Assembly (NCBI GenBank): GCA_947172415.1 | Contig: OX359189.1 | Location: 9,686,501 to 9,750,500, forward strand | Source: Chondrosia reniformis | Lineage: Eukaryota > Porifera > Demospongiae > Chondrillida > Chondrillidae | DNA: 64,000 bases | Direction: 5' to 3' | Shown here: piece by piece, positions 30,916-54,396 of the stretch | How positions within the stretch are numbered: the stretch's first letter is position 1 | How the letters are laid out: each line of letters starts with the position of its first letter | Made by a program: the position numbers and the translations under genes | Notes under the pieces: model-generated | The model's database searches: none | Told to the model about the DNA's origin: nothing | Seen by the model: only the letters and a program-made list of their open reading frames with translations

Positions 30916-32760
30916 ATGGCTGTCGTAGTTCAGTTCAAGAAGGGCCTTGTTTGTATACTCGTGTCTCTGTGCCTGGTGCTGGGGATGTGGACAATCTTGG
31001 TAATGACATTCTCCAAAAGCAGAAACTTTGATGAAATCACCAACTGTAATGCGAGCAAAAGGGACGAACAGGTCACGTTAGATTTAATGGTTAGTGCGCG
31101 CAGTTTAGGAAACCAATAGACTCCATCAGTCGAGTGTGATATATACTGTTATGATGATGGATGTGTGATATTGTATATACATTGCTTCGCTGATGGAGTG
31201 TTCATTGGGAACGTATGCTAAGTCGTGACATGCTTCATTTGTTCTCTTCCATTAGTGCAATCACTACAGACAAGGGAAGATCAGCGGATCGTTTTGTAAG
31301 ACAATGTGCCTTCGGAATAGCGTCCACTTTCAGAGGTGCATGGGATATAAGAACGATTCAGCAGTATTTCTGGTCGACTTGGAGAATAGTGACCAATCAT
31401 CAATTGTCTTAAAAAGTATGCGTTCGACTAGAGAATTAAAGGATGCGTTAGATTATGCTAGATCAGTATCGCAAGAGCAGCCTACAGCTGATCAGGAGTC
31501 TGGCGAAACTGTAGTGCGTACCCACTTGAAGAGGATACTTGACCTGATTGGTGCAAAGAGCGATGAATCTACGGTAAATCTAATTGTCCCCCATTACACA
31601 GTAGAGTGTGATAAAGATGGAGATACCACACTATCCCCAGGCGAGGTGGAGTTCTGTCTTCGCTTGGTGTACACTCAGGAATATCTCTTTAATATAATCC
31701 TCAAGGACACAGGCAGAACTCCGCACTTGTATGGCATGTGTGGAGGTGTGTATGCTACAGACTATTATAATATGCCCATTTCTCCGCCTCCTTTAAATGA
31801 GAAGGACTCGCGGCCGTGGAAGGTGAGAGCGCTCCTTGCTATAGCACTGTTGAACTTGGTGACCTCCTACGAGAAGACAGCCAACGGAGTGGTCTTCCTC
31901 TGCGATATGCAGGCAGATAACTTTGCAGCCGTCAAGAATGAGGATGGGACTTATGACGCTTACTCAATTGATATGGATCTGTCTTTCTTTGAAAAGGCAT
32001 TGTACAGAATGCTACATCGTCGTGCACGTGAAGAGAGAGAGTGTAAAACTGACAAAGATTGTTCACTGGTTGACTGTCGGGTGCAGTGTAAAGATGGCCA
32101 TTGCACCTCCAGCATGACTACTAGCAATTTACAGGTATGCAATCTTGAGAGTACTTGTGGGGAAAAAAGAAAAAAGGTTTAGATCCAAGCAATAAATGGT
32201 TATTGTATTTTCTCTATTGCCAGACCTACCAAAATGGCTGTGCTACATGTCAGCAATTAACTGAGCACATGACTGTCAAATAGATTAATGTCTACCACAT
32301 GCATGGCTCTGATGGCAACGAGCAGTCTTTATTGTCAGCTTGTCCTATGAATATAATTATCACTAATTTGTATGAATGGAGACTAATTACTAGTTTGTAG
32401 TTTAAGAGGGAGGCGTTGCTGTGGCAGAGCACTGGTGTCTAAAGTAGTTGGGTTTGATTTTCAATAAATGTATCTTTGTATTCCCCCCTTAAATAATGTG
32501 CATTTATAAAGTAGTTGTGGTGTGATTATCACTTTGATTATTTGTAGATGATGTGCTATCGTATCTTTACTGGTGATGGAGACATCTTGTGGGGTCTACT
32601 CCACTCCCCCCCACAGAGTATAGAGGCCAAACTGGGAGCACTATTACATGAATGCTTGGATCCCGATTCTCCCCTCCCATATATGGAGGGGACTCTAGTT
32701 CACTCACCTCTTAACACACTTGAGACTCTTAAATCACTTTTAACCCAATCTTTGGAATAA
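30916..32760 (+). CDS. FAM69/DIPK1-like divergent protein kinase, copy 1
   Basis: Predicted 421-aa type II membrane protein of the secretory pathway, related to the cysteine-rich FAM69 (DIPK1) proteins. Exons: 30916-31089, 31256-32134, 32548-32760; all junctions phase 0. The ATG in AAAATGGC was chosen; an in-frame ATG lies ten codons upstream. Features: a membrane anchor at residues 12-32; a cysteine-rich segment opening exon 2 (CNHYRQGKISGSFCKTMC); a canonical EF-hand loop DKDGDTTLSPGE; HLYGMCGGVY; a catalytic-loop-like LCDMQADNFA and a metal-binding-like IDMD; then a CxxDxxCSLVDC cysteine block. In the family the EF-hand is inserted in the kinase N-lobe. Whether it is catalytically active is unknown. 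Tandem with copy 2, which has the same exon structure. Confidence 0.85.
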
Positions 32761-33162: not shown

Positions 33163-36100
33163 ATGGTTTGGAGAGTAATACGTCGCCGCATAGTGTATGT
33201 GGTAGTGTTCTCCATGGCTTTGTTTTCTCTGGTCGCCTTCAGGAGACGCGAGACGGTCACTATAGTGGCTGGAGTGAGTAATTCGGATCTTGTAGACTGC
33301 AATACAAAGGAGTCGCAGTTTTTTGTCGAGCAGTTGGTAAGTATAGAGAGGATGGTTGTGCTGTATTCGCAAGCATCGGCGTCTAGCCCCTCTACTCGTT
33401 TTGAATATTCTAATCGAAAACATTGAAATTGTGTAAACTATCAAATGTCGATACGAAACTGATACTGTTTTGCACTGTACTCTGGGCTTCGCTGAAATAT
33501 TTTAATTTCACTTGCAATGTTTATAGTTTTTGCAATTACAAGTTCCTTTAATTATTCACAGCAACAAATTTTCGTGTTGATCTATAACCGATCACATAGA
33601 AATCAGTGTACATGCTGGCGTGTTTTATAAAAGTGCGAAAGGTAGCATTGGAGATTTTAGCATTTCATTGTAAATTCCTTTAATACAATTCCTATGACAA
33701 CACTGTGAATGAGCTACTTGTAGAAGCGAATGTACTTGAGAAAGCTTTAATTCTAAGTACGCATTATACAGACTATTTCACTAAGTATTAATAGAACTGT
33801 ACAATATTAATTTATAGGTGTAGTGTGGTGTGGCTATGTGTATAATTTGGTGTATAGGAGATGTGGTAGTTTGTTTTGGGTTGTGGGAAAACACTCAAGT
33901 CCAGCCCTCTAGTCTCTACAGTACATGCTAATGGTCTGGCACCATTGCATTAGCGCTGCTCACACTTACATAAGAGTGCTTATATGTGTTCCCACAGCAC
34001 TGTTACAGTATAAATTGAATACCAATTCACTTAGTCTAGCACTCAACTGCCCACCTGGTATTGCTATTATGCCATATCAATTACACAATACACATGTACT
34101 CAGGTAGGGCTATTGTCCTGTTAACACTCTACAAGACCAGAAAGAATTTAATGTCACCAGCTTAGCGTATAGACAGATTGCATAGAGGTAACATATTGAC
34201 AGATAGCACATAGAGATAACATATTGACAGATAGGGTAGAGGTTGCTTGAAAGTTATAAATATAAGTTTAGGAAGATATATGATGTGCAGTCATTTGTTT
34301 ATTTCATGTACACAAAGAGTATATGTGGTTAAGCCATTTCAGAGCACATTATCACGACAAATAGTCCACTGTTTAGATCTACTTTTAAGTACTGTAGTTT
34401 AGGCTTAGAAACATTGAAAATATTATTAATGAAAGTGAAAAGAGAACAAAGTAGAACAAACTGTGTTGCTAGTTTTGTAAACTGATTCAACTCTTCAATC
34501 AGTTGAACACTAATAGTATTTAGTCTGTGGCCACTGAAACATTATAAGACCCATTTGGTATTTATAAGTATATACAGAAGTATATAGCAGGTTATATATG
34601 CAAGATGTATTGTATGCTATAAAGTTTTTAGTAATTACCCCGTTGTATTGTGTTGGTTCTGTAACCTTGTACGTACATTGAAGCAGATTAATTAAGTTGA
34701 TCACTGGTCATATGAGATGTACTGTGGAATGTGATATCTCCTCAATGAAGAGGTGTCAAGTACTTGAGTGGGTGAGTGTGCAGAGTGACTCATTGCTGGC
34801 TTTAATGAGTGCCTGCTTGAGCACACTGTTGTCATGGCAACCAAGATGTCTGACCTATCCCTTTAGGGCAAACTAGGGGTGGAGTAGACAATGATCTGTT
34901 GATTTTGTGCGAGAATTTGTACAAACTGGTGGAGTGTGTCAGGTGTGGCTTCAGGCCTTGCTGGTGCAGCTGTAGCAGTGAGAGGAAGTGGGAAGGAATT
35001 CGTACAAGCTCACTGGAATAACATGAAAATGAGCTAATTGTGTCTAACAACTTGAAATAATTGGCAATCAATTATTTGTGGCGCTTCAGTGTCTGAAGAC
35101 TGAATGTGTCATAGTTACTGTTTTCTATCATTTGAATTTTGAATTTACACCTCAGGCACTCATGAGCACAATGAGCTAATGGGAGGAACTTTAAACAGAA
35201 GTAATATATAGTTCAGTATCTTCTGATAGTATGTAATTTGGCGATGTGTGCCTATATCGGTATATGGGTGACACTTACTTTGTAATTATATTCTAAAAGG
35301 AATATCTACTGGAATATCAATTAAGAGTATCTCCAAGGGAATTGTAACAGATATTTAAGATATTTAATTAAAAGTAGGTAACAATTTTAGCTGAGCTGAC
35401 TATTTAAGAGCAATTAAGTGTCCACCAAGTATACTAGAATATCCTGAAATGTGTAGGCTAATATCCTAAAGTGTGTAGCCTAATATCCTAAAGTGTGTAG
35501 GCTAATATCCTAAAGTGTGTAGGCTAATATCCTAAAGTGTGTAGGCTAATATCCTAGAGTGTGTGTGTGATATTTAGAGCTCCAAGTGCATCTCCTTCAT
35601 GTGGCATCTCCTCCGCCTGTAGTGTTCCAACTTCTCCAGAGGCCTACTGTCAGGCTCCTACTGCTCCAGACTATGTGGCGGATACCAGTACCTCAAGTGC
35701 ATGGGTCATGGGGTCAAGTCTCACGTGATCCTCGTCCAAGAAGGATCTAGGAGTGTGGTTCTGAAGAGTATGATTAATGAAGACAGCTCTGAGATTAGCT
35801 ATTTCTTTGAAACTGCAAAGAAGACTAATGTTTACACAAAGAAGGAAGTTGCTGTCAGTGTTAGAAATGCTCTTGGTGCCATCATGAGTGCAGATCAGAT
35901 CAATACAGAAACTGTTGATAAACTGACACATCACTACTTTAAAGAGTGCGATAGCAACCACAATGGCCTCCTTAGCTACCAGGAGATGGCTATCTGCTGG
36001 AGACTTATATATTCAGAGGAGTATCTCTTTGGAGTGCTACTGGGCACATATAAGGGGATTCCCCAAGTCTATGGTACATGTGGTGATGTCTTTGCAGTTC

Positions 36101-37049
36101 AGTATGCAGAGGAGCCAATCTTCCAGCCTCTCTGGAACTCCTTCCCCCTCACTTCCTGGGTTACTAGGGCGCACATGGCTATAGCTCTGTTGGATGTGAT
36201 AGAAGAGTTTGAGACGACTCCATACGGCGTCCTTTACCTCTGTGATCTGCAGGCCAGTAACCTTGCCTTCCAGAAACAATCTGATGGGAGTTACAAAGCG
36301 TATGCTATTGACATGGACATCTCATTCTTTGAGGGTGCCATGCTGTCCATCCTGCAGCAGGACATGGACGAGTTGAAGAAGTGCGAGGATGATCGGAAAT
36401 GTAGTTTCTTTAGTTGTCACTCAAAGTGCATCGAAGGAAAGTGTTCGCAGAAACTTGACACAAGTAACCTTCAAGTGAGTCTATATACATATGTACAACT
36501 GTATATGACAAGCATATCGGAATATAGGTTTGCTGACTGTTATCAACTTAATAGGCTATATTGGTACAGCCAGACCTGTATTCAAGGATGAGCATTGGAA
36601 CCAAGAATTTTGTTGTTATCATTACTGCTTTCATTTTGCAAACAATCTTTCTTTTAAAGTTTTGTACATAGAATTAGTATAGTTTTTATGTTAGCTATAG
36701 GGAGAGTGGATATACTCTTGTTGTGATTAATATATTGTATTATTATATGGTCCCTTATCTTTATATAAGAAGAAATTAAATGTTTATGTCTGTGTTTCAG
36801 TTACCTCCTCTCTTGTCTCTGTCACTAAAGGTGTTATGTACAGAATTATTAACTAATAAAGGTGATGTCAAAGAAGGTCTACTGCATGACCCACCTGGGG
36901 GTGTGGCATCCAAACTGCAGTACCTCCTGAGGAGGTGTGTCCATCCCGACAAGCTTCTCTACTTTATGAAGGACACACTTGTCCACTCTCCGTTACATTT
37001 ACTGAAACACATCAGAGATCTCCTAAAAGAGTCAGTCCATCTCTCATGA
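33163..37049 (+). CDS. FAM69/DIPK1-like divergent protein kinase, copy 2
   Basis: Predicted 414-aa membrane-anchored paralogue of copy 1. Exons: 33163-33336 (174 nt, exactly the length of exon 1 in copy 1), 35623-36474, 36831-37049. The exon 2 acceptor CCTGTAG was chosen because it starts at the family cysteine (CSNFSRGLLSGSYCSRLC). Residues 11-26 form a membrane anchor. The EF-hand loop is DSNHNGLLSYQE, with D/N ligands at 1, 3 and 5 and E at 12. Then come QVYGTCGDVF, LCDLQASNLA, IDMD and a C-terminal cysteine block (CSFFSCHSKC). Exon 3 could start 30 nt earlier (36801); homology with copy 1 favours 36831. Intron 1 is 2.3 kb and contains 22-bp tandem repeats. A polyadenylation signal AATAAA lies at 37051-37056, right after the stop. 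Confidence 0.85.
33337..35622. other. Large intron of DIPK-like copy 2
   Basis: 2.3-kb intron without recognised exons. It holds a perfect X-box, GTTGTCATGGCAAC, at 34828-34841, two 33-bp direct repeats near 34170-34235 (ATAACATATTGACAGATAG) and the 22-bp array at 35438-35570. Confidence 0.6.
35438..35570. repeat. 22-bp tandem repeat, about six copies
   Basis: Unit AATATCCTAAAGTGTGTAGGCT with single-base variants, in the intron just upstream of exon 2 of DIPK-like copy 2. Confidence 0.9.
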
Positions 37050-37458
37050 GAATAAAGTGAAGACAATTAACTATTATACTTTTGTAGTCGTGTATACTTG
37101 TATCGGACATTTATATGTTTGTTGTCATTTGTGTTTTTAAACCATTCAATGAATTTAGACGTGTTTTAATATTTTTCCAACTTCTGTAAGGATATCGATA
37201 TCGCTATATATTGGAAGACTTCGACTTTTGAGCGCAGTGCTGTACAAGTTTTCATTTAATCGATATCGCAATTGGGTTTTTGGCCATTCGATTAGAACCT
37301 ACAAATCGTCCCCGATTTTCACTTCCTAGAGGGGAGGACCGGATTAATTTGATGCAGGGCTGCCCATTAAAATATTCTAGATACCGTAACTGAATGTAAA
37401 TATAAGTAACTTCCACGAGTTTACTACTTAAGATCTAGAATCGCATTGTAAAAACGAA

Positions 37459-38802
37459 ATGGCTCATTCACGTCAGTGCAGTTACCAGGGAAAGGAGTAC
37501 ACTATTCTGGTGAGGGATCCTGACCGACTTCACGAATTGAAATGTCCCATTTGTCTTGAACTTGTTCACGAAGCGAAACAGACATCTTGCGGCCATCTTT
37601 TCTGTGCGGGATGCATCAAAGCTCGTGAATGTCCTGTGTGCCGAGTTAGCTGTGGGATCACTACTGATAATCGTGTAATAAGGGAGATAAGAAATCTTCA
37701 GGTGCAATGTTTGAACAGCGAGCGAGGTTGTGAGTGGCAAGGAGACCTTGGGGAATGTGAGGATCACATGACCAATAGGTGCCAATTTGAGGTAATATCC
37801 TGTCCCTTGGAGTGTGAAGTGAAGATGGAGCGACGTAAAAAGGACCATCATACCAACCAAGAATGCAAACTCCGTCCATTTACCTGTTCTTACTGTGGAC
37901 AAGAAGAAACATTTGACGTAATCACTACTTCCCACTACACTAGCTGCAGTTCCTTCCTGCTACCTTGTCCTGCTGAATGTAGAAATACTCTCAAACGTGA
38001 CGAAATGGAGCACCATTTAGCAACATGTGAGGAAGAACTGGTAGCTTGCAAGTATGCACAAATTGGATGTGATTCGGTCGTTAAGAGAAGGAATTCTGAT
38101 GATCACTTTCAAACTGAGAAGGATGGTCACTTGGAGAAAGCCATGAATAGTGTGAGCACACTTACTATGGTTGTTTCAACAATGTCACTTGGAGGACCGG
38201 TTGAGCCTCCCTTTCGCCACTGGCTTTCTTCTAAGCCATCTTGGTACCCTCTTCCTCCTTGCATTATAAAGATGGATAACTTCAAAAATATGAAGGAAGA
38301 GAATACAATATGGTACAGTGCTCCATTCTACTCCCACTTTGGAGGATACAAGATGTGCCTGTGTGTTTATGCCAATGGAAGTGGTGATGGTAAAGGTACA
38401 CACGTGTCAGTGTACATATGTCTGATGAGAGGTGAAAATGACAACAATCTCAAGTGGCCATTCAGAGGAAGAATCAAGATCACCTTACTGAACCAACTGC
38501 AACCAAATAACCATCTCTCAGATACCACAAACTTTACTAAAGACACTCCAAAAATATGTTGCGAACAAGTTATGGAAGGAGCAGGCTCAGGTCAGGGTTG
38601 TGGTCCAGATAAGCTCATTTCGCATGATGGTCTCAGTGCCAATGCAGAGAAGAAAATCTGTTATTTGAAAGGAGATACTCTCTACTTCAAAATAGAAAGT
38701 ATTGATGTAGAACTAGAAGATTGCAATACCGGTACTCCACCAACATATTCCTTTTTTTACAATTGGTTATTGGGTATATATAAACTCAAAAATATTATTT
38801 AA
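37459..38802 (+). CDS. TRAF-family protein (RING, TRAF zinc fingers, MATH), copy 1
   Basis: Intronless 447-aa cytoplasmic adaptor / putative E3 ubiquitin ligase. RING finger with C29, C32, C44, H46, C49, C52, C58 and C61, all present. Several TRAF-type zinc fingers follow in residues 75-225 (for example CEDHMTNRCQFEVISCPLEC and CEEELVACKYAQIGC). A TRAF-C/MATH domain occupies about 255-430 (IKMDNFKN..., SAPFYSHFGGYKMCLCVYANG). An in-frame TAA at 37429-37431 upstream of the ATG shows that translation starts here, unlike in copy 2. TRAF proteins couple TNF-receptor, TLR/IL-1R and CARD-type complexes to NF-kB and MAPK signalling. It is about 95% like copy 2 by eye, so the duplication is recent. 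Confidence 0.92.
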   Translation: MAHSRQCSYQGKEYTILVRDPDRLHELKCPICLELVHEAKQTSCGHLFCAGCIKARECPVCRVSCGITTDNRVIREIRNLQVQCLNSERGCEWQGDLGECEDHMTNRCQFEVISCPLECEVKMERRKKDHHTNQECKLRPFTCSYCGQEETFDVITTSHYTSCSSFLLPCPAECRNTLKRDEMEHHLATCEEELVACKYAQIGCDSVVKRRNSDDHFQTEKDGHLEKAMNSVSTLTMVVSTMSLGGPVEPPFRHWLSSKPSWYPLPPCIIKMDNFKNMKEENTIWYSAPFYSHFGGYKMCLCVYANGSGDGKGTHVSVYICLMRGENDNNLKWPFRGRIKITLLNQLQPNNHLSDTTNFTKDTPKICCEQVMEGAGSGQGCGPDKLISHDGLSANAEKKICYLKGDTLYFKIESIDVELEDCNTGTPPTYSFFYNWLLGIYKLKNII

Positions 38803-40207
38803 CCGTAAATAATTCTGAAGATTTATTATCATCATCACAATTTCATATTACTTTGCTTACATTTATTAGTGTTCATACATAATATGTAGTAGCTTTTTCA
38901 GACTATAAGTTTTAACTGTTTTAATTATCTTAAGATTGTATTTATGCATATGCACTACAAACTTAGTTGTATTGTTTATTATGGTTTTCTTTAAATTTGG
39001 ATGGATCATGTATTTTATACAAGTAAAATAAAAACATTTAAAAAATACATAGGGATCGATGGCAGTATTTGCAACAATAACTATAAAAGCACATCGGGAA
39101 AAGGTAATGAATTCGAAACAAGACTGGAAGGGTGTACCTCGAGAAGAGAGATTGTGTATATAGAGGGTGTAGGACAAATGAAGAAGTGGGAAAAAGAGAC
39201 TGTAATTATTGGTTGATACGGTGTCCTACGTAGGTGGGAGCCGGAAAGAAGACATCCTTTGACTAATGTTAAAGAAAGGCTTCCCAACTTAAGCATCCTT
39301 AACTGGTGACATTCAGTCAATCTGCTGCAATCACAGACTTAGCTTGTGAATGTGGGATTGCTCATGCAGCAGATCTACTTAATGTGGACTGCAAGATTTG
39401 GCTGATTCAGACTGTTATGATGTGCATGTGTATACCTGACAGTGTTTCATTACTTGGGTCTGTATCCTATATATAAAGTGCTGTTTTGCATATGTGCACA
39501 TTAATATTAATTATAATATAAAAATAATTTGTTTGTTGTTTAATTAACTGATCCATAGTTTCAGAACTTATAAGCTAATTCTAGACATTGTGTTCTTCCA
39601 TCTGACATTACCAACAATCATGCAGGACATGTGTCAGGATCTGAAGTGAAGGTTGCCTTCACACCACCTTCAGAAACAGAATATTGTATAGCATATACAG
39701 GTCTTAATATTGCAAATATTGACATACCATTGAGTTCTAGATCTGTTTTAATGTACGCATTATGTAGTATTGAAACATTACAGTAAACAACATGACCGGT
39801 GGAAATAGGAAACTTATACAGTATATACGACCATTAGATGTAAAGAAACAGATCAGAGATCTCCTAAGGGACTCAGTTTATCATGAGAATAAAGTGAAGA
39901 CCACCAATAATACTTTTATAGTCGTGTATACTTGTATCTGACAATTTATATGTTAGTAATCTTACAGCCTGTTTTATTATGCATTCTAAAGTAATGTTCT
40001 CTCTAGTTGTGGAGGTCAACTTGCTAGGAATAGGTTAATCTCCCCGTTTAATCATTTGTTTGATAGCACATATTTTCCGTGCCTACCATGTTTCTACAGC
40101 TTATATACAGTTAATGTATATACATATAGCGGGAATGAGACGACTATATACTCTTTTAGCACCAAATTTAGTAATATTTGAGCAGGTAACGCCCTATAAT
40201 GATAAAA
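38803..40207. other. TRAF-CARD flank with a fragment of the DIPK 3' end
   Basis: No complete gene. The block is repeated at 43295-44681 and, inverted, at 52080-53441. It contains a dispersed repeat (about 38990-39120) and, at 39845-39956, a copy of the 3' end of DIPK-like copy 2 (last codons, AATAAA and downstream flank; compare 37005-37130). This shows that the CARD gene was once joined directly downstream of a DIPK gene. Confidence 0.65.
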
Positions 40208-43200
40208 ATGGCGAATTCTTTCAGTTGCAAGGATTTCCTAAGAGAGAGGAGAGTTGACTGGGAGAATAACCTTCCTTTGAATGATGTCATTACTCGAATT
40301 CAAGCTGATGGTTACTTAAGCAAATTCCAATACGAAGAGTTGATTGCAATATCTAATTATAACGAAAGAAGAAGAAAATTTGTGAATCTCTTTTTGGAAA
40401 AAGATGAACGAGCTGTCGAGTACCTCTTCGATCTAGTACGTGGTCTGAAGGGATATTCCCATTTATTACCAGTGCAGCAGGACTGTGAAATCAGCAAATT
40501 GACAACAAGTGAGTAATCACCTAGTATATAATGAGCGATCGACCAATAAATAACACTCCTCAAATTGAGCTTGACAGAGATTTCGTTAACAAAACCATCT
40601 TGCCTTCCCTGAAAGAGGAATATTGCGACATTAGATCGGTAGCTTCGTCACTTCGAGCAGGTAATGTAATTACCCCGAGCGACCTGGAAAAACTTGACTA
40701 TATTCAGACTGTAAGAGAGGCAAACGGCTACTTTTATCAAATAATCGATAGAGATCCTTCAATAGATAAGCTTCGAGCTCTTTGTAAAGCCTTAAAGAAG
40801 GACACCACTATACAGCACCACCAGGAAATGGCTTCTAAGATATATACATTTATGCAAAGTAAGCTTCACTGCTGAAGTATCATTGATAATTTAATGACCT
40901 CGTACAGTCTAGTTGCACTATTTACCAATAATGTTACTCTTCCACTATAGAGCTGGAGGGTCAATGCACATCAATTGCATTAACTAATTTGACACAGCTC
41001 CCAAATTGGAGGAAGCTTTTTGAAGCTTTTGAATCTGAGCTGATTGACTTTCCTGAGTCCTATGACATCAGAAAAGCTCACCAAAATATTATGATTCAAT
41101 TGTCCTATGTTTTGAAAAAGATAACGGAAGAGGAACTGCAGGCTGCTCGCTCTAGCTTGCTGGATGGGTGTAAATGGCAGCTAGGAATTGAGATTCCTTC
41201 TGATATTCCTGACAGTACTACAGGACTAGAAAATTATCTCCAAATCTGGACCACTCCACTAGATGTTCGCATGGTGGAGTATGTAGAGGAAGCCATCAAA
41301 GACAAGAAAAAGACGAAGGAACTGGTGGTAGCTCTGGAGACACATAAAGATCAATTGAAAACCTTCTCAGAGGAGACCCTTACCTACTTTAAAGAGCATG
41401 GAGTGAAACTCAAAAAAGATGTAAATTTAAGCCACATTGTGGTCGAGGTCTCCCTCAAGCCAGAGGAATACCTCCTCAGGGAGTTACTTAGATTAAAAAC
41501 GTATCTCCAAAAGTGTCTTTTAATCAATCCGCTTTTGTTTAAAGGATTCATTGGCAACAGCATTTTGCTGATTTTTCAGATTTCAACCAAAGTAGCCTCC
41601 CTTCTTGCTCCCATTATCTTCAGCCACCAGTCCATCCTAAGGAATGACTACAGTGTAACAAAGATAGTAGTACAGGATCAATTTGCCGTGGATGTGCAGG
41701 AGGGGAAACACTATTCTCTAGTGAGTCTCATGAAAGTGTCCTCAATGTATAATGTACACAATTGAATATCAAATAATGTTTGGATAACTCCAGGAACTCA
41801 GGTTTGATAATTTAGAAATGCTGAAGCAATCTATATACAGTGTATACATGTTCAAAAACAATATTAAGAGCATATGCTTGTAGCAGTCATATAATATTCT
41901 GCCCCAATGTACACATTCTGTACATACTGTAGGTGCAGGCCTCCATTCAGGCTCTTCATTGTAAAGACGAAATGGCTCATTCACGTCAGTGCAGTTACCA
42001 GGGAAAAGAGTACACTATTCTGGTGAGGGATCCTGACCGACTTCACGAATTGAAATGTCCCATTTGTCTTGAACTTGTTCACAAAGCGAAACAGACATCT
42101 TGCGGCCATCTTTTCTGTGCAGGATGCATCAAAGCTGGTGAATGTCCTGTGTGCCGAGTTAGCTGTGGGATCACTACTGATGTTCGTGTAAAAAGGGAGA
42201 TAAGAAATCTTCAGGTGCAATGTTTGAACAGCGAGCGAGGTTGTGAGTGGCAAGGAGACCTTGGGGAATGTGAGGATCACATGACCAATAGGTGCCAATT
42301 TGAGGTAATATCCTGTCCCTTGGAGTGTAACGTGAAGATGGAGCGACGTAAAAAGGACCATCATACCAACCAAGAATGCAAACTCCGTCCATTTACCTGT
42401 CCTTACTGTAGACATGAAGGAACATTTGACGTAATCACTACTTCCCACTACACTAGCTGCAGTTCCTTTCTGCTACCTTGTCCTGCTGAATGTGGAAAGA
42501 CCATCAAACGTGACGAAATGGAGCACCATTTAGCAACATGTGAGGAAGAACTGGTAGCTTGCAAGTATGCACAAATTGGATGTGATTCGGTCGTTAAGAG
42601 AAGGAATTCTGATGATCACTTTCAAACTGAGAAGGATGGCCACTTGGAGAAAGCCATGAATAGTGTGAGTACACTTACTATGGTTAACGTTGTTTCAACA
42701 ATGTCACTTGGAGAACCGGTTGAGCCTCCCTTTCGCCACTGGCTTTCTTCTAAGCCATCTTGTTACCCTCTTCCTCCTTGCATTATAAAGATGGATAATT
42801 TTAAAAATATGAAGGAAGAGAATACAATATGGTACAGTGCTCCATTCTACTCCCACTTTGGAGGATACAAGATGTGCCTGTGTGTTTATGCCAATGGAAG
42901 TGGTGATGGTAAAGGTACACACGTGTCAGTGTACATATGTCTGATGAAAGGTGAAAATGACAACAATCTCAAGTGGCCATTCAGAGGAAGAATCAAGATC
43001 ACCTTACTGAACCAACTGCAACCAAATAACCATCTCTCAGATACCACAAACTTTACTAAAGACACTCCAGAAATATGTTGCAAACAAGTTATGGAAGGAG
43101 CAGGCTCAGGTCAGGGTTGTGGTCCAGATAAGCTCATTTCGCATGATGGTCTCAGTGCCAATGCAGAGAAGAAAATCTGTTATTTGAAAGGAGATACTCT

Positions 43201-43294
43201 CTACTTCAAAATAGAAAGTGTTGATGTAGAATTAGAAGATTGCAATGCTCCACCAACATTTTCCTTTTACAATTGGTTATTTAAGCCGAAATAA
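40208..43294 (+). CDS. Predicted CARD-TRAF chimera (alternative CARD exons, helical exon, RING, zinc fingers, MATH)
   Basis: Exons: CARD1 40208-40508 or CARD2 40531-40858 (both end in phase 1), common exon 40951-41720, and 41939-43294. The totals, 2427 or 2454 nt, are whole codons (808 or 817 aa). CARD1 has RRVDWENNLPLNDVI and AVEYLFDLVRG helices of the CARD fold. CARD2 is a second, divergent death-fold module. The common exon is a helix-rich region I do not recognise. The last exon starts ASIQALH, the first residues of a coiled-coil exon still complete at 50014-50217. It is cut near 41957 by a duplication breakpoint and then stays open, in frame, through the 5' flank and the whole TRAF copy 2 (own ATG at 41972, RING cysteines all present). 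TRAF2 could also be translated alone. Fusion at transcript level is a prediction. Confidence 0.6.
41972..43294 (+). CDS. TRAF-family protein (RING, TRAF zinc fingers, MATH), copy 2
   Basis: 440-aa single-exon paralogue of TRAF copy 1, differing at scattered residues plus a 2-residue insertion (MVNVV against MVV) and a shorter C-terminus. The RING (CPICLELV ... CPVCR), zinc fingers and MATH domain are complete. The in-frame stop that lies upstream of copy 1 is absent because the duplication breakpoint is 15 nt upstream of the ATG. This is either a separate TRAF or the 3' part of the CARD-TRAF chimera described at 40208. Confidence 0.88.
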   Translation: MAHSRQCSYQGKEYTILVRDPDRLHELKCPICLELVHKAKQTSCGHLFCAGCIKAGECPVCRVSCGITTDVRVKREIRNLQVQCLNSERGCEWQGDLGECEDHMTNRCQFEVISCPLECNVKMERRKKDHHTNQECKLRPFTCPYCRHEGTFDVITTSHYTSCSSFLLPCPAECGKTIKRDEMEHHLATCEEELVACKYAQIGCDSVVKRRNSDDHFQTEKDGHLEKAMNSVSTLTMVNVVSTMSLGEPVEPPFRHWLSSKPSCYPLPPCIIKMDNFKNMKEENTIWYSAPFYSHFGGYKMCLCVYANGSGDGKGTHVSVYICLMKGENDNNLKWPFRGRIKITLLNQLQPNNHLSDTTNFTKDTPEICCKQVMEGAGSGQGCGPDKLISHDGLSANAEKKICYLKGDTLYFKIESVDVELEDCNAPPTFSFYNWLFKPK

Positions 43295-44681
43295 TTCTGA
43301 AGATTTATTATCATCATCACACAATTTCATATTACTTTGCTTACATTTATTAGTGTTCATACATAATATGTAGTAGCTTTTTCAGACTATATAAGTTTTA
43401 ACTGTTTTAATTATCTTAAGCTTGTATTCATGCATGTGCACTACAAACTTAGTTGTATTATGGCTTTCTTTAAATTTGGATGGATCATGTATTTAATACA
43501 AGTAAAATAAAAACATTCAAAAAATACATAGGGATGGCAGTATTTGCAACAATAACTATAAAAGCACATCTGGAAAAGGTAATGAATTCGAAACAAGAAG
43601 GGTGTACCTCGAGAAGAGAGATTGTGTATATATAGAGAGTGTAGGACAAATGAGGAAGTGGGAAAAGAGACTGTAATTATTGGTTGATATGGTGTCCTAG
43701 GTGGGAGCCGGAAAGAAGACATCCTTTGACTAATATTGAAGAAAGGCTTCCCAACTTAAGCATCCTTAACTGGTGACATTCAGTCAATCTGCTGCAATCA
43801 CAGACTTAGCTTGTGAATGTGGGATTGCTCATGCAGCAGATCTACTTAATGTGGACTGCAAGATTTGGCTGATTCAGACTGTTATGATGTGAATGTGTAT
43901 ATACCTGACAGTGCTTCATTACTTGGGTCTGTATCCTATATATAAAGTGCTGTTTTGCATGTGTGCACATTAATATTAATTATAATATAAAAATAATTTG
44001 TTTGTTGTTTAATTAACTGATCCATAGTTTCAGAACTTATAAGCTACTTCTAGACATTGTGTTCTTCCATCTGACATTACCAACAATTATACAGGACATG
44101 TGGTGAGGTTCTGAAGTAAAGGTTGCCTTCACTCTACGTACCTTCAGAAACAGAATATTGTATAGCATACACAGATCTTAATATTGCAAATATTGACATA
44201 CCATTGAGTTCTAGATCTGTTTTAATGTACGTATTATGTAGCACTGAAACATTACAGTAAACAGCAAGATCGATGGAAATAGGAAACTTATACAGTATAC
44301 GACCATTAGATATAAAGAAACACATCAGAGATCTCCTAAGGGACTCAGTTTATCATGAGAATAAAGTGAAGACCATCAATAATACTTTTATAGTCGTGTA
44401 TACTTGTATCTGACAATTTATATGTTAGTAATCTTACAGACTGTTTTATTATGCATTCTAAAGTAATGTTTTCTCTAGTTGTGGAGGTCAACTTGCTAGG
44501 AATAGGTCAATCTCCCCGTTTAATCATTTGTTTGATAGCACATATTTTCCGTGCCTACCATGTTTCCACAGCTTATATACAGTTAATGTATATACATATA
44601 GCGGGAACGAGACGACTATATACTCTTTTAGCACCAAATTTAGTAATATTTGAGCTGGTAACGCCCCCTATAATGATAAAA
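43295..44681. other. Second copy of the TRAF-CARD flank
   Basis: Same content as 38803-40207, with the DIPK 3'-end fragment at 44316-44430. No independent gene visible. Confidence 0.6.
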
Positions 44682-45032
44682 ATGGCGAATTCTTTCAGTT
44701 TCAGGAATTTCCTAAGAGAGAGGAGAGTTGAGTGGGAGAATAACCTTCCTTTGAGTGATGTCATTACCAAAATTCAAGCAGATGGTTACTTAAGCAGATA
44801 CCAATACGAAGAGTTGAATTCAATATCTAATTATACCGAAAGAAGAAGAAAATTTGTGAATCTCTTTTTGGAAAAAGATGAACGAGCTGTCGAGTACCTC
44901 TTCAATCTAGTACGTGGTCTGAAAGGATATTCCCATTTATTACCAGTGCAGCAGGACTGTGAAATCAGCAAAGTGTCAACAAGTGAGTAATCGTGAGTGT
45001 TTTAAATTTAACCATCCGCGGCTGCATGCATT

Positions 45033-45080
45033 TTTGTAATCATTCAATTCATCCATATAGATGAATTGAATGATTACAAA
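45033..45080. repeat. Perfect hairpin, about 20-bp arms
   Basis: TTGTAATCATTCAATTCAT and its complement flank an 8-base loop in the CARD-AIG1 intron. A second small palindrome (AGGGAGTAC / GTACTCCCT) lies at about 45434-45455. No gene. Confidence 0.8.
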
Positions 45081-45240
45081 GAATAATGGACTTGTATAAT
45101 GATAATATACTAAATGGCAGCAAATTGATTTTCACTTTCTTATATTGTGTATTGTGTTCTACCAATTTTAGAGAAGGTGCATATCTAGCCATTATAATAA
45201 TATAGAAATATTAAAAATTTTCTACAAAAATAGTGAAGAT

Positions 45241-45431
45241 GTAGGGATGGCACAAAAAGTAGAGAAACAAGAAAGGGATGTTACACAGTGAAGTATTAGC
45301 TATACATAAATCCTACAAGCAAGGGTGTTGTATGATTCATGCATAGCTAATACTTCATTGTGTAACATCCCTTTCTTGTTTCTCTACTTTTTGTGCCATT
45401 GGGGAAAACGAAAAAAACGCGTCATCCCTAC
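45241..45431. mobile_element. Foldback/MITE-like element in the CARD-AIG1 intron
   Basis: Left arm 45241-45303 (GTAGGGATGGCACAAAAAGT...) pairs with 45343-45399 and 45423-45431, the right arm being split by about 23 extra bases. It is non-coding. A target-site duplication is not clear. Part of the arm resembles the dispersed repeat family of this window (CTTGTTTCTCTACTTTTTG), which suggests two copies of that repeat in inverted orientation. Confidence 0.7.
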
Positions 45432-46575
45432 ATAGGGAGTACTACCGTACTCCCTGATAAATTAATAGAGTAAACCTTATTTCAATGACTTTTATTAACC
45501 ACTATAACCAATCAAATATAATCTAGGTTATATAACTAGGTCTACAAACTTCTACTCATATCTTTGTAGGAATGGCAAGTAAGCAAACTCAGACCAGTTT
45601 TGACAAAGATCCTATTAACCCCATTGATAGGATGAGCAAAGTAAAGGAATATCTTGCTACTCCCTTTCCTGAGGGTGTCATTCTGCTCATAGGATCAACA
45701 GGGAGCGGAAAGAGCACTTTAGGCAACCTTCTAGTTGATCCTCCAAAACCTGAGACAGAATCACCTGATTGCATGGTTACTGAACAAAAGAAATACTTCA
45801 CCATGGCCGAGACTGCTAAACTAGAGACGCAGTTTGTGCAGGCAGAGAGTGTCCAAAACTACCCTAAATCAATAATTATTGATACTCCTGGATTAAACAA
45901 TATTGACCGTGTGAGGGAGCTGAGGCATATGACTGATATAATAAAGCAACTGGTAAAGCAAAGATTCCTATTAGGCTGTCTTTTTGTTACAAAATGGGAT
46001 GCCAAAATTGACCGTCAGTATGAAGAAACAATGAAGTACTATGGAAAGCTGCTTCCAGATATTTTTGAGGCTGGTAATGTTGTCTTGGTAATGACAAACT
46101 ATGCAATGGACAAGAAGTCAGTGAGGACAAGGAAAAACGAGGCGTTGATGTTTCCAAATGCATTGCAAATACCACTAAGAACATCAAAGAGTGCATCCCA
46201 CACATGAAATTTACAGCCGATGTAGTCCTTATTGATTCTTTTCCTGATGCTGAAAGTATTGATGACGAATACTTGGCTTGTCTTGAGAGGCGAAAGGACA
46301 TACTTGATTGTCTTAGAAGATTTCGTCCCATTCAACTAAGTAGATTAAAGCTAGCTAAAATACCAGAAATAATTAAAGAAGATGAGCTAGCAATTCAGTC
46401 TCTGGAATATGAGATTAAAAGGGAAATGATAGCTCAGGAAAGAGACAAAAGTCGAAGGGAAGAGTATGAAAAGAAGCAGAAGAAAATAGAACTTCAAAAG
46501 AAGATAGTAAGGTTGAAAGACAAGTACATGACAGTAGAAGAAGCAGAAGACCGCCTTCAAAACCTATGTTTGTAA

Positions 46576-48068: not shown

Positions 48069-51000
48069 CTAGTTATAAAATGCCTTAATTATTATCTCTT
48101 TGGAACTGCATATAAATTCTGGTATCTCTCCATTACTATAATGATATTCAAGCACATCTTTCAAGGAAACAGTGAAGGTACGGTCATCCTTAAGCTTCTC
48201 ACTAACACTGACCCCAGCTCCTATTGTTCCCCCTGTCACTCCTTCAGTTAATAAACCAATAGCACCACCAATTACACCCCCAATAACAGTTCCAATACCT
48301 GGAACAACAGCGTTACCAATAATGGCACCTCTGGTAGCTCCACTAGCACCAACAATTGCACTCCCTACTCCTCCTCCAATTGCAACTCCTACAAAATGAC
48401 ATACAAGTGTATATGACATATAACATAAGTGAAACAGAAATAAAAATGTTTGGAATTAGGTACATGCTACATGAAAAATCTAAGATACCATTTTCCTACA
48501 TGCTATATGCCTATTCTGTAAAAAGAGCCTATAGGGGAACTAAACCTAAAGAGAGCTTTAGATGAAGATACAGGAGTCTTTTCTTCCTTCTTTTCCCTTC
48601 TTTCATCTTCTTCTCCACTGGGTCAGACAGCCGTTTCTGGGAATTCCACCCTTCATCAGTGATCCTGGGAGTCTTTGTCTTTTTCTTTATCTTGATCTTC
48701 TGTGAATCCTTGGCATGACTGATCTAATATAGAGCACTAATTTTAGACTGACCTTTTGCAATAGGACTTCCTGGGTGACAGCGAATCACCACTCCTGGGG
48801 TTATTTTCAATTTATTTTGACCATTGATAACTACTGGATAAACATTCCGATTGACAGTCTTTATATCATCCTCTTCAACAGTACAATCACCAAAACCTTT
48901 CTTTTTAGCTAGAAATATTCCATAATTCTCTATAAGACTTCTCAACCTTTTTTCATTTTCTGCAGACATATATACAAGTTAAATAAAAACATTCGAAAAT
49001 GAAGTTAAAAAGTAGAATGACAGTGATTGGCACATCTAGAAAAAGTAACAAACAAGACAGTGATCATATTGTAAGAAAAATGAGGAATTTCAGAATTTGG
49101 CCTATTTCGGTTTTACCACTTCGAAGGTTGTAGAGCATCAAAACATATTTTGGCTTTTAGAAAAGCATGCAAAAACGACTGCAAACACTCGAATATAACC
49201 GAAAATCCTATCATTGTTGATTAATGAGGTGTTAATTGATAATACATTAGATAGGGCGGCCATGTTTTTTTTCAAATACATATAACAAAGCTAATATATA
49301 ACAAAAGCTTAAGTCTTAAAGCCTTAAAGTATTGTATTTGGCAGAAGAACTTTTAAGACTACATACAGCTATATATATATACATAAGTTTAATACAATAA
49401 TTTACCTGATTGGTTGCTAATTTTTTTAGCAATGCTCTGCTTTTCTTGCTTCTCTGCTTTCTCCATCCTGGGAGATTTCTGGAATTCTTTTTCTCTTAGT
49501 TTTTCCTGAAGAAAAATGATGAACATTGACCCAATTATCTATATAGCCTCCCTAGGAATGGCTGGCTTATTGTAGCCATCCTGAAATGCAAATATAATAT
49601 GATTTAGATTGAGCCATCCTAATTATTGAACTGTGATCAGTGACAGAGAATTGATGATTACATATAAAAAGGCATGCAATAGTTTTGATTTCAATTCCTA
49701 ATGACTGTTCATTAATTCATTCTTATAATTAATAATTTGGTCTTCTTCTTGGGTCGGTTGTCTAGACCTGAACATTGTAATCGGTAATTGTAAAAGGTAA
49801 TTGCTGCATGAATGGTGATGTCATTCTAGTGGGGAAGTTTGTTCAAATGGTATATGAGAATATGATGAGTCCTTATTATATAATAGGACAAATTGCTAAA
49901 TCATCTTTTTGAGTAGCTAAGGGATACTCTAGTTCCCATTTAGTGAGTGGGGTAAATTCAGAGTCAAACAATGATGACATACATAGAAGCTCCTGCACAA
50001 TATAATTGTATACCTCCTTCAGTCTCTTCACTTCTTGTTTCTCCCTTAGAAGCTCTCTTTCTCTTTCTTCCAATTTCCTTTTGAGATGTTTTACAGTTTC
50101 CTTACTACTAGCAAGTTTGACTTCTAAGGATTGAAACTCCATCATGGTAGAGTGGTGTAAGCCCTCCAGGTTCTTCATATCAGATTTGTGTTTTTCTTGA
50201 AGAGCCTGAATGGAGGCCTGCACCTATGTACAGAATGTGTACATTGGGGCAGAATATTATATGACTGCTACAAGCATATGCTCTTAATATTGTTTTTTGA
50301 ACATGTATACACTGTATATAGATTGTTTTAGCATTTCTAAATTATCAAACCTGAGTTCCTGGAGTTATCCAAACATTATTTGATATTCAACTGTGTACAT
50401 TATACATTGGAGTTATCCAAACATTATTTGATATTCAACTGTGTACATTATACATTGGAGTTATCCAAACATTATTTGATATTCAACTGTGTACATTATA
50501 CATTGAGGACACTTTCATGAGACTCACTAGAGAATAGTATTTCCCCTCCTGCACATCCACGGCAAATTGATCCTGTACTAGTATCTTTGTTACATTGTAG
50601 TCATTCCTTAGGATGGACTGGTGGCTGAGGATAAAGGGAGCAAGAAGGGAGGAGGCTACTTTGGAGGAAATCTGAAAAATCAGCAAAATGCTGTTGCCAA
50701 TGAATCCTTTAAACAAAAGCGGATTGATTAAAAGACACTTTTGGAGATACTTTTTTAATCTAAGTAACTCCCTGAGGAGGTATTCCTCTGGCTGGAGGGA
50801 GACCTCGACAACAATGTGGCTTAAATTTACATCTTTTTTGAGTTTCACTCCATGTTCTTTAAAGTAGGTAAGGGTCTACTCTGAGGAGGTTTTCAATTGA
50901 TCTTTATGTGTCTCCAGAGCTACAACCAGTTCCTCCGTCTTTCTCTTGTCTTTGATTGCTTCCTCTACATACTCCACCATACGAACATCTAGTGGAGTGG

Positions 51001-52070
51001 TCCAGATTTGGAGATAATTTTCTAGTCCTGTAGTACTGTCAGGAATATCAGAAGGAATCTCAATTCCTAGCTGCCATTTACACCCAGCCTGCAAGCTAGA
51101 GCCAGCAGCCTGCAAGCTGGAGCCAACAGCCTGCAGTTCCTCTTCCGTTATCTTATTCAAAACATAGGACAATTGAATCATAATATTTTGGTGAGCTTTT
51201 CTGATGTCATCGGACTCAGGAAAGTCAATCAGCTCAGATTCAAAAGCTTCAAAAAGCTTCCTCCAATTTGGGAGCTGTGTCAAATTAGTTAATGCAATTG
51301 ATGTGCATTGACCCTCCAGCTCTATAGTGGAAGAGTAACATTATTGGTAAATAGTGCAACTAGACTGTACGAGGTCATTAAATTATCAATGATACTTCAG
51401 CAGTGAAGCTTACTTTGCATAAATGTATCTATCTTAGAAGCCATTTCCTGGTGGTGCTGTATAGTGGTGTCCTTCTTTAAGGCTTTACAAAGAGCTCGAA
51501 GCTTATCTATTGAAGGATCTCTATCGATTATTTGATAAAAGTAGCCGTTTGCCTCTCTTACAGTCTGAATATAGCCAAGTTTTTCCAGGTCGCTCGGGGT
51601 AATTACATTACCTGCTCGAAGTGACGAAGCTACCGATCTAATGTCGCAATATTCCTCTTTCAGGGAAGGCAAGAGCGTTTTGTTAACGAAATCTCTGACA
51701 AGCTCAATTTGAGGAGTGTTATTTATTGGTCGATCGCTCATTATATACTAGGTGATTACTCACTTGTTGACAATTTGCTGATTTCACAGTCCTGTTGCAC
51801 TGAAGAAGGTAATAAATGGGAATATCCCTTCAGACCACGTACTAGATCGAAGAGGTACTCGACAGCTCGTGCATCTTTTTCCAAAAAGAGATTCACAAAT
51901 TTTCTTCTTCTTTCGTTATAATTAGATATTGCAATCAACTCTTCGTATTGGTATGTGCTTAAGTAACCATCTGTTTCAATTTGGATAATGACATCATTCA
52001 AAGGAAGGTTATTCTCCCAGTCAACTCTCCTCTCTCTTAGGAAATTCCTGAAACTGAAAGAATTCGCCAT
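48069..52070 (-). CDS. CARD, helical, coiled-coil, glycine-zipper gene (inverted copy; one nonsense codon)
   Basis: Exons: CARD1 51764-52070 or CARD2 51414-51741 (both phase 1), common exon 50528-51321, coiled coil 50014-50217, basic coil 49406-49505, 48753-48959, glycine-rich 48069-48388. The totals, 1932 or 1953 nt, are whole codons (643 or 650 aa). The coiled-coil exon is Lys/Glu-rich (LKRKLEERERELLREKQEVK). The final exon is a glycine-zipper segment (AIGGGVGSAIVGASG, VIGGVIGGAIGLL) that could enter a membrane, then a polar C-terminus. The architecture suggests a death-fold adaptor or executor with a membrane-active end; that is inference. TAG at 50876-50878 (GAG in the plus copy) stops the common exon, so this allele may be inactive. 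It shows what the plus copy at 40208 lost when TRAF copy 2 replaced its 3' exons. Confidence 0.6.
48479..48720 (-). other. Lys-rich orphan exon-like segment, copy 1
   Basis: On the minus strand an open frame with SQKIKIKKKTKTPRITDEGW and KKMKEGKRRKK lies in the last intron of the CARD/glycine-zipper gene. A close copy is at 58412-58660. Its splice phase does not fit the neighbouring phase-1 exons, so I treat it as a duplicated exon remnant and not as part of the gene. Confidence 0.45.
50361..50504. repeat. 48-bp tandem repeat, three copies
   Basis: GGAGTTATCCAAACATTATT-type units of 48 bp immediately 3' of the common exon donor of the minus-strand CARD gene. The plus copy has one unit at the matching place. 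Confidence 0.9.
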
Positions 52071-53441: not shown

Positions 53442-54396
53442 TTATTTACGGTTAAATAACCAATTGTAAAAAAAGGAATATGTTGGTGGAGTACCGGTAT
53501 TGCGATCTTCTAGTTCTACATCAATACTGTCTATTTTGAAGTAGAGAGTATCTCCTTTCAAATATATAACAGATTTTCTTCTCTGCATTGGCACTGAGAC
53601 CATCATGCGAAATGAGCTTATCTGGACCACAACCCTGACCTGAGCCTGCTCCTTCCATAACTTGCTTGCAACATATTTCTGGAGTGTCTTTAGTAAAGTT
53701 TGTGATATCTGAGAGATGGTTATTTGGTTGCAGTTGGTTCAGTAAGGTGATCTTGATTCTTCCTCTGAATGGCCACTTGAGATTGTTGTCATTTTCACCT
53801 CTCATCAGACATATGTACACTGACACGTGTGTACCTTTACCATCACCACTTCCATTGGCATAAACACACAGGCACATCTTGTATCCTCCAAAGTGGGAGT
53901 AGAATGGAGCACTGTACCATTCAATATTCTCTTCCTTCATATTTTTAAAATTATCCATCTTTATAATGCTAGGAGGAAGAGGGAACCAAGATGGCTTAGA
54001 AGAAAGCCAGTGGCGAAAGGGAGGCTCAACCGGTTCTCCAAGTGACATTGTTGAAACAACCATAGTAAGTGTACTCACACTATTCATGGCTTTCTCCAAG
54101 TGACCATCCTTCTCAGTTTGAAGGTGATCATCAAAATTCCTTCTCTTAACGACCGAATCACATCCAATTTGTGCATACTTGCAAGCTACCAGTTCTTCCT
54201 CACATGTTGCTAAATGATGCTCCATTTCATCATGGTTGAGAGTCTTCCTACATTCAGCAGGACAAGGTAGCAGAAAGGAACTGCAACTAGTGTGGTGGGA
54301 AGTAGTGATTACATCAAATGTTCCTTCTTGTCCACAGTAACAACAGGTAAATGGACGGAGTTTGCATTCTTGGTTGGTATGCCTACAGTGTAGCAA
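53442..54396 (-). pseudogene. TRAF-family gene, copy 3, truncated
   Basis: Retains the TRAF zinc fingers from HTNQECKL onward and the MATH domain, but the RING and first zinc finger are missing. The sequence switches at about 54390-54397 into plus-strand CARD-gene exon sequence. A 4-nt insertion (ATAT) after KICY near 53565 also shifts the frame before the C-terminus. It cannot encode a RING ligase. A MATH-only fragment might still be translated, but there is no good start. Confidence 0.85.

Follow-up and report, generated by a model that had tools for sequence, protein, structure and literature searches.

A predicted CARD-TRAF fusion gene at a base-readable junction in the sponge Chondrosia reniformis

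We examined a window of 64,000 nucleotides (the whole stretch of DNA that was analyzed) on chromosome 1 (C1) of the Chondrosia reniformis assembly. The window contains no N and holds an array of TRAF-CARD units, in which the start of one gene, encoding a CARD-like adaptor, runs into a complete TRAF gene. Genome-wide searches covered the assembly of 15 contigs and 117,379,552 bases. The fused copy is called A; copy B lies in the window on the reverse strand, copy C at locus L041, and D is a further copy. Copy A is made up of the following features:

40208..40508, forward strand: exon 1, CARD-like by weak Pfam and PDB matches, with an ATG at 40208 and a phase-1 donor GTGAGT (ATG and donor conserved in copies A, B, and C)
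40531..40858, forward strand: exon 2, a second CARD-like domain by family matches, which has an ATG of its own, a phase-1 donor, and no plausible acceptor in front
40951..41720, forward strand: exon 3 (770 nt), a helical region plus a TRADD-N-like region, with a phase-0 donor GTGAGT at 41721
41412..41720, forward strand: TRADD-N-like part of exon 3 by turn residues and a crude propensity, with the turn motif GNS before ILLIFQI
41721..41938, forward strand: phase-0 intron retained from the CARD/coiled-coil gene
41939..41958, forward strand: stub of the coiled-coil exon (18-20 nt), a 100% match to 50217-50198 on the reverse strand and to L041
41939..43294, forward strand: fused exon 4, coiled-coil stub plus TRAF copy 2, with an open frame and Pfam and PDB matches

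The junction and its reading frame

The CARD-to-TRAF junction is genuine and correct to the base. A sequence-only reading of the window had placed a GTGCAG acceptor in front of a truncated coiled-coil exon, and base-by-base inspection agrees: the acceptor ends at 41938 and the exon begins at 41939 in phase 0. Comparison with copies B and C and with TRAF copy 1 also bears out the switch to TRAF DNA near 41957 and the 18-20-nt length of the stub. The coiled-coil exons of copies B and C match through 41958 and TRAF copy 1 matches from 41957, leaving the shared dinucleotide CA at 41957-41958. The overlap is thus 2 bp relative to TRAF copy 1, and it is 1 bp relative to TRAF copy 3. An 86-nt sequence across the junction gave one full match in the 117-Mb assembly and two partial matches on the TRAF side. 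No inverted repeats were found at 41500-42300.

The last base of exon 3, at 41720, completes a codon and is followed by GTGAGT, and the frame stays open from there through the TRAF ATG (41972, within fused exon 4) to the stop at 43292-43294, as had been claimed. Starting from CARD exon 1, the path of 301 + 770 + 1356 nt totals 2427 nt, and the alternative path from exon 2 (328 + 770 + 1356 nt) totals 2454 nt; both consist of whole codons with one terminal stop and would encode 808 and 817 amino acids, respectively. The lack of a plausible acceptor before exon 2 implies that this exon would be usable only as an alternative first exon. The stop that was said to protect TRAF copy 1 is an in-frame TAA at 37429-37431, upstream of its ATG. 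Copies A, B, and C retain the splice motifs of exons 1-3; the exon-4 acceptor is conserved in these three and in D as well.

We simulated 136,000 pairs of breaks (340 positions in the coiled-coil exon by 400 positions upstream of the TRAF ATG), of which 2.4% produced an open, in-frame link; with the break no more than 27 nt from the ATG, 32% of 9,520 pairs did so. Given these chance rates, an in-frame link alone is not very improbable and constitutes modest evidence.

Domains of the predicted chain and the exon-3 family

TRAF copy 2 is full length, with Pfam domains RING (about 42053-42157), zf-TRAF (42446-42619), and MATH (42782-43216). The zf-TRAF (62.1 bits) and MATH_2 (97 bits) matches are above cut-off, and among the RING models only zf-C3HC4 exceeds its cut-off (22.8 versus 21). 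Structural matches in PDB are to TRAF5, TRAF3, TRAF6, and TRAF2, including chain 1f3v_B. TRAF copy 2 is a full TRAF, as judged by its RING, zf-TRAF, and TRAF-type MATH domains.

For the exon-1 family, sub-cut-off matches to the Pfam CARD model occur in 5 of 7 members (best 1.9e-4) and weak matches to DAG_kinase_N in 6 of 7 (best 0.0012); the Apaf-1 CARD accounts for 7 of 9 PDB matches (best E 0.11). A paralogue of exon 1 at C14:4545229, 50% identical, exceeds the CARD cut-off (32.1 bits). The exon-2 family has weak CARD matches in 4 of 12 members (best 1.4e-4), and exon 2 has six weak PDB matches, led by a designed protein (E 0.004) and including the BCL10 CARD (E 0.08). Relatives of exon 2 precede relatives of exon 3 on C2 and C3. 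A DED identity for exon 2 was dropped, as all nine DED matches lie elsewhere. We consider both exons CARD-like on evidence that is weak but repeated. If exon 1 is left unspliced, its frame stops at a TAG (40514-40516) with the ATG of exon 2 following 14 nt on, an arrangement (40508-40531) that would permit a CARD-only product and reinitiation. Across five differing unit pairs, the CARD exon (40208-40508, 44682-44982, and 51764-52070) differs by 4.7-6.0%, compared with 1.9-3.9% in TRAF-CARD noncoding DNA. These differences are mostly amino-acid changes, possibly reflecting diversifying selection or conversion.

The sequence-only reading had proposed that a one-molecule adaptor/ligase was born here. 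Its in-frame coding path stands, but it passed over the 770-nt middle exon as filler, and this exon is what the members of a large sponge family have in common. A genome search with exon 3 yields 46 matches, including a few fragments that belong to one copy; 34 members were aligned (alignment A1), 30 of which reach the turn of the TRADD-N-like part, and 16 of those 30 form alignment A4. In 26 of 31 relatives, the exon has a phase-0 GTNAGT donor at a matching position, give or take one codon, recognized as a sequence motif with the exon joins predicted. These relatives are not independent, as most of the 20 members on C3, C9, C11, and C12 are closely related. Three of the other relatives have a phase-0 donor 27 nt later, and two have none in the stretch inspected. 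Such a conserved donor would allow any phase-0 acceptor to be joined without disturbing the frame.

We inspected 1.5 kb on each side of the exon-3 relative at 15 loci away from copies A-D (L024-L028 and L031-L040). A same-strand exon-2 relative lies upstream in 8 of the 15 and an exon-1 relative in one (L032). The scan for downstream exons covered a few loci and gave, on the same strand 3' of the exon-3 relative, a caspase-type exon at L036 (21.7 bits, cut-off 21.4) and Roc-type GTPase exons at L025 (27.2 bits, cut-off 27) and L033 (20.9 bits, below cut-off). Coil-like runs follow the exon-3 relatives at L026 and L028.

The text of Kaur et al. (PMC8195603) describes TRADD-N as having a b-a-b-b-a-b, RRM-like fold with a tiny residue and Ser (or Cys) at the beta2-beta3 turn, and as binding the TRAF2 MATH domain in vertebrates. 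The central turn is S or C in 28 of the 30 aligned exon-3 members that reach it, in keeping with the TRADD-N turn. In 26 of the 28 this residue follows G or S; in the other two, the fused copy and copy C, it follows N (giving GNS). A crude Chou-Fasman propensity gives strand-helix-strand-strand-helix-strand, a rough fit, for the last 100 residues. The C-terminal half of exon 3 thus resembles TRADD-N by pattern and is not filed as a member of that family. The overall layout fits the Death-like/TRADD-N/variable immune proteins, with the names CARD and TRADD-N resting on weak or no profile match and the exon joins predicted.

Parents of the junction and history of the array

The unfused parent structure survives as copies B and C, both oppositely oriented. 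The following features of the window bear on the history of the junction:

37459..38802, forward strand: intact TRAF copy 1, which has kept the ancestral 5' flank (about 1.2 kb in common with copy 3)
41957..44992, forward strand: second TRAF-CARD unit, 94.3% identical to 37444-40518
49876..50217, reverse strand: intact coiled-coil exon of copy B, the unfused parent structure, by sequence comparison
50528..52070, reverse strand: unfused copy B, with the CARD exon at 51764-52070, exon 2 at 51414-51741, and exon 3 at 50528-51321 containing an internal TAG
53455..54381, reverse strand: TRAF copy 4, 5'-truncated with a +4 frameshift, by sequence comparison

Copy C has no break in exons 1-3 or in the coiled-coil exon, and exon 3 of copy D is frameshifted. 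Between copies B and C, the CARD exon and exon 2 show no difference and exon 3 differs at 23 of 770 positions; such mosaic identities between copies point to gene conversion. A comparison of five TRAF copies shows 1 and 2 alone to be full length and free of breaks: 3 and 4 carry frameshifts, and 4 and 5 are truncated at the 5' end. About 1.2 kb upstream of the ATG is common to TRAF copies 1 and 3 (94.4% over the whole match), which identifies this as the ancestral flank and copy 2, which keeps only about 15 nt of it, as the altered copy. On the other side, about 1.4 kb of 3' flank is co-linear between copies 2 and 1. That so much flank was carried along points to a join at the DNA level, and retrotransposition of copy 2 was rejected on this ground (the argument concerns copy 2, not the origin of the intronless TRAF gene).

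The proposal that the junction is a duplication breakpoint survives in part. The junction itself stands, but simple tandem duplication as the whole story was rejected: it would give exons 2 and 3 again, and the second unit instead diverges from the first at 44992, just past the CARD donor, and runs into a CARD-GTPase gene. Among four TRAF-CARD units, shared sites make the first and second nearest relatives. Either a tandem duplication that was later altered again or a deletion between adjacent units would account for the origin, and comparison of the units suggests that a junction between two neighboring TRAF-CARD units fits at least as well as duplication. A second instance of the order TRAF remnant-CARD-GTPase lies at C1:9789.5-9791.3 kb, in keeping with a junction between neighboring units. 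There, at locus L099 (C1:9788501-9792500), positions 1018-2821 hold a TRAF copy that has lost a large internal part; a CARD exon and GTPase-like DNA come after it.

Several neighboring features were also observed. At 44682-46207 of the window, a further CARD exon (CARD', donor 44983) and a GTPase exon (acceptor 45568-45569) would form one reading frame if spliced together, a second predicted CARD fusion in the array. The GTPase exon matches MMR_HSR1 above and AIG1 below cut-off, and the joined frame stops at 46205-46207; an overlapping frame after it (46078-46575) has no Pfam match. Two FAM69/PIP49 kinase-like genes lie 5' of TRAF copy 1 (31256-32182 and 35623-36591; PF12260, 89.5 and 98.4 bits), the 3' part of the second falling inside the segment shared with TRAF copy 3 (from 36243). 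Elsewhere in the genome, tandem TRAF arrays at C2:9336761-9405617 and C3:6636590-6737299 contain many open frames of about 600-640 amino acids with two MATH domains. Exon-2 (CARD-like) relatives at C3:6693299-6693953(+) and C3:6719543-6719773(+) lie about 1.8-1.9 kb from double-MATH TRAF genes on the opposite strand, as neighbors and not as fusions. Outside the C1 array, no MATH/exon-3 neighbors were seen among the matches listed, when genome match lists were compared by eye.

Function, rival explanations, and meaning of the fusion

We lean toward a fused gene that is spliced and translated as a chain predicted to read CARD - TRADD-N-like - RING - zf-TRAF - MATH. A join within the array of TRAF-CARD pairs would have removed the end of a CARD/exon-3/coiled-coil gene together with the promoter side of the next TRAF, linking the remainders over 2 bp. 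The resulting gene would have the adaptor start, the phase-0 donor of the family, the acceptor of the coiled-coil exon, and then a whole TRAF. An upstream CARD receptor would nucleate the CARDs, so that the attached RING and TRAF parts could cluster, make ubiquitin chains, and start NF-kB-type signaling, bypassing a distinct TRADD:TRAF step. Until assembly, the MATH domain may be kept bound by the TRADD-N-like part of the same chain, an internal clamp that follows the switching model of Kaur et al. (PMC8195603).

Possible signs of function come from the pattern of change. Indels specific to the second unit in the TRAF coding sequence (+6, -6, and -3) are all multiples of three, versus none of the seven in the 1.4-kb flank (2, 2, 2, 1, 4, 2, and 2; Fisher p 0.008, or 0.028 without the -6 shared with copy 3). 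A 28-nt C-terminal gap specific to unit 1 was excluded from this count. At the flank rate, 6.7 frameshifts would be expected in the coding sequence of TRAF copy 2, which is open across 440 codons despite its lost ancestral 5' flank. Over nt 391-1266, dN/dS is 0.90 and 0.94 for TRAF copies 1-3 and 2-3, 0.37 for 4-5, 0.43-0.55 for copy 4 against 1, 2, and 3, and 0.29-0.42 for copy 5 against 1, 2, and 3. These values make some past constraint likely for TRAF in general rather than for the fused branch in particular.

Other observations weigh against the spliced and translated fusion. Coding DNA may slip less than flank, and the truncated TRAF copy 5 is likewise open across its 923 nt, which makes the open-frame argument for copy 2 weaker than it looks. 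The comparison of synonymous and non-synonymous change, suggested at the outset as a check for selection, could not be told from neutrality: dN/dS between TRAF copies 1 and 2 is 0.57 (p 0.16, not confidently below 1), and pairs of CARD, exon 2, and exon 3 give about 0.7-1.7, none significant. The copy-2 branch carries eight non-synonymous and three synonymous changes and no stop, with two further changes not placed, and 65% of neutral runs with 11 substitutions also lack a stop. Changes of this kind would fit immune genes that evolve fast, and also weak constraint or none; part of them may predate the fusion if it arose by deletion between older units. The intron of the fused copy is 5 nt longer than in copies B, C, and D, the insertion lying directly in front of the acceptor. 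Exon 1 scores 16.1 bits against the Pfam CARD cut-off of 23.9, and exon 2 has no match. TRADD-N was absent from the matches listed (25 of 31 families) for the 34-member exon-3 alignment, the A4 scan (16 of 30 members) matched one unrelated family only, and Pfam, NCBIfam, and PDB scans returned neither PF13820 nor PDB 1F3V chain A. Across the whole genome, PF13820 has one sub-threshold match, elsewhere; it gave nothing in 12 cyanobacterial and 14 control genomes, so that this search is without a positive control.

That an assembly artefact joined two array units is very improbable. Repeats do abound in the region (identity about 92-95% between units and as high as 99% between single exons), but an overlap of 2 bp is not what assemblers join on, which counts against such an error. 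Neither the window nor the next 9.5 kb contains an N, and PMC12181767 reports a HiFi assembly with a QV of 69.8. The locus could instead be a young, unselected relic in an array decaying by duplication and gene conversion, the fused copy being merely stop-free so far. The broken sister copies, the mosaic identities between copies, a dN/dS not distinguishable from 1, and the likely stop-free survival of a neutral sequence with so few changes would all fit; the contrast between coding and flank indels and the preserved splice motifs weigh against it, and we regard this as rather unlikely. We also think it unlikely that a new promoter in exon 3 or the intron drives TRAF copy 2 by itself while the CARD/exon-3 part ends separately. 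Copy 2 does keep its own ATG, preceded by nearly the same bases as in copy 1, but its ancestral 5' flank is lost, and the adaptor donor and acceptor are intact and in phase.

Among known proteins, cIAP1/2, like the predicted fusion, combine a CARD and a RING E3 in one polypeptide; they act in NF-kB signaling and, unlike the fusion, have BIR repeats and no TRAF/MATH part. TRAF2, TRAF3, TRAF5, and TRAF6 share the RING, TRAF zinc fingers, and MATH, to which the Chondrosia fusion adds the N-terminal CARD-like and exon-3 parts. In the TRADD:TRAF2 complex (PDB 1F3V), whose chain B is matched by TRAF copy 2, a death-fold, TRADD-N, and a TRAF MATH likewise come together. That complex is formed by two vertebrate proteins, whereas Chondrosia has one predicted chain in which the death-fold is N-terminal and CARD-like and the TRADD-N homology is tentative. 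For Amphimedon, the text of Kaur et al. (2021, PMC8195603) describes a 357-member expansion of proteins with Death-like and TRADD-N domains and a variable C-terminus, MATH and caspase among the ends. The predicted Chondrosia layout shares the N-terminal Death-like domain(s), TRADD-N(-like) middle, exchangeable C-terminus, and lineage expansion, but its end, as predicted from sequence, is a full RING-zfTRAF-MATH TRAF. Such an end was not found in the text of that paper, its source data aside. A literature search at the level of titles and abstracts, supplements aside, found no named CARD-TRAF fusion protein, nor is there one in the portions of text available from PMC6321704 and PMC13012725. The locus is thus, as read from its sequence, a known plan (Death-like plus TRADD-N plus variable end) with a new predicted end and a base-readable junction.

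Death-like/TRADD-N proteins of marine animals show a striking C-terminal variety, the origin of which is not settled. Retrotransposition has been proposed as part of its cause (PMC8195603); the Chondrosia fusion differs in carrying about 1.4 kb of TRAF 3' flank, and what happened here looks more like the joining of DNA into a conserved phase-0 intron than like retrotransposition. A junction readable to the base beside its unfused parents makes such a route testable. More tentatively, the exon-3 family may serve as a genomic socket, in which a CARD/TRADD-N-like unit stays constant and its conserved phase-0 donor repeatedly receives new effectors by DNA joins. This locus would then be one birth, with breakpoint, parents, and broken siblings adjacent, yielding a one-chain TRADD:TRAF2 equivalent active in sponge immunity. 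If the TRADD-N identity holds, counterparts of TRADD and TRAF2 would share one chain, and, if expressed, the fusion would combine in a single natural chain what is otherwise a two-protein immune complex.

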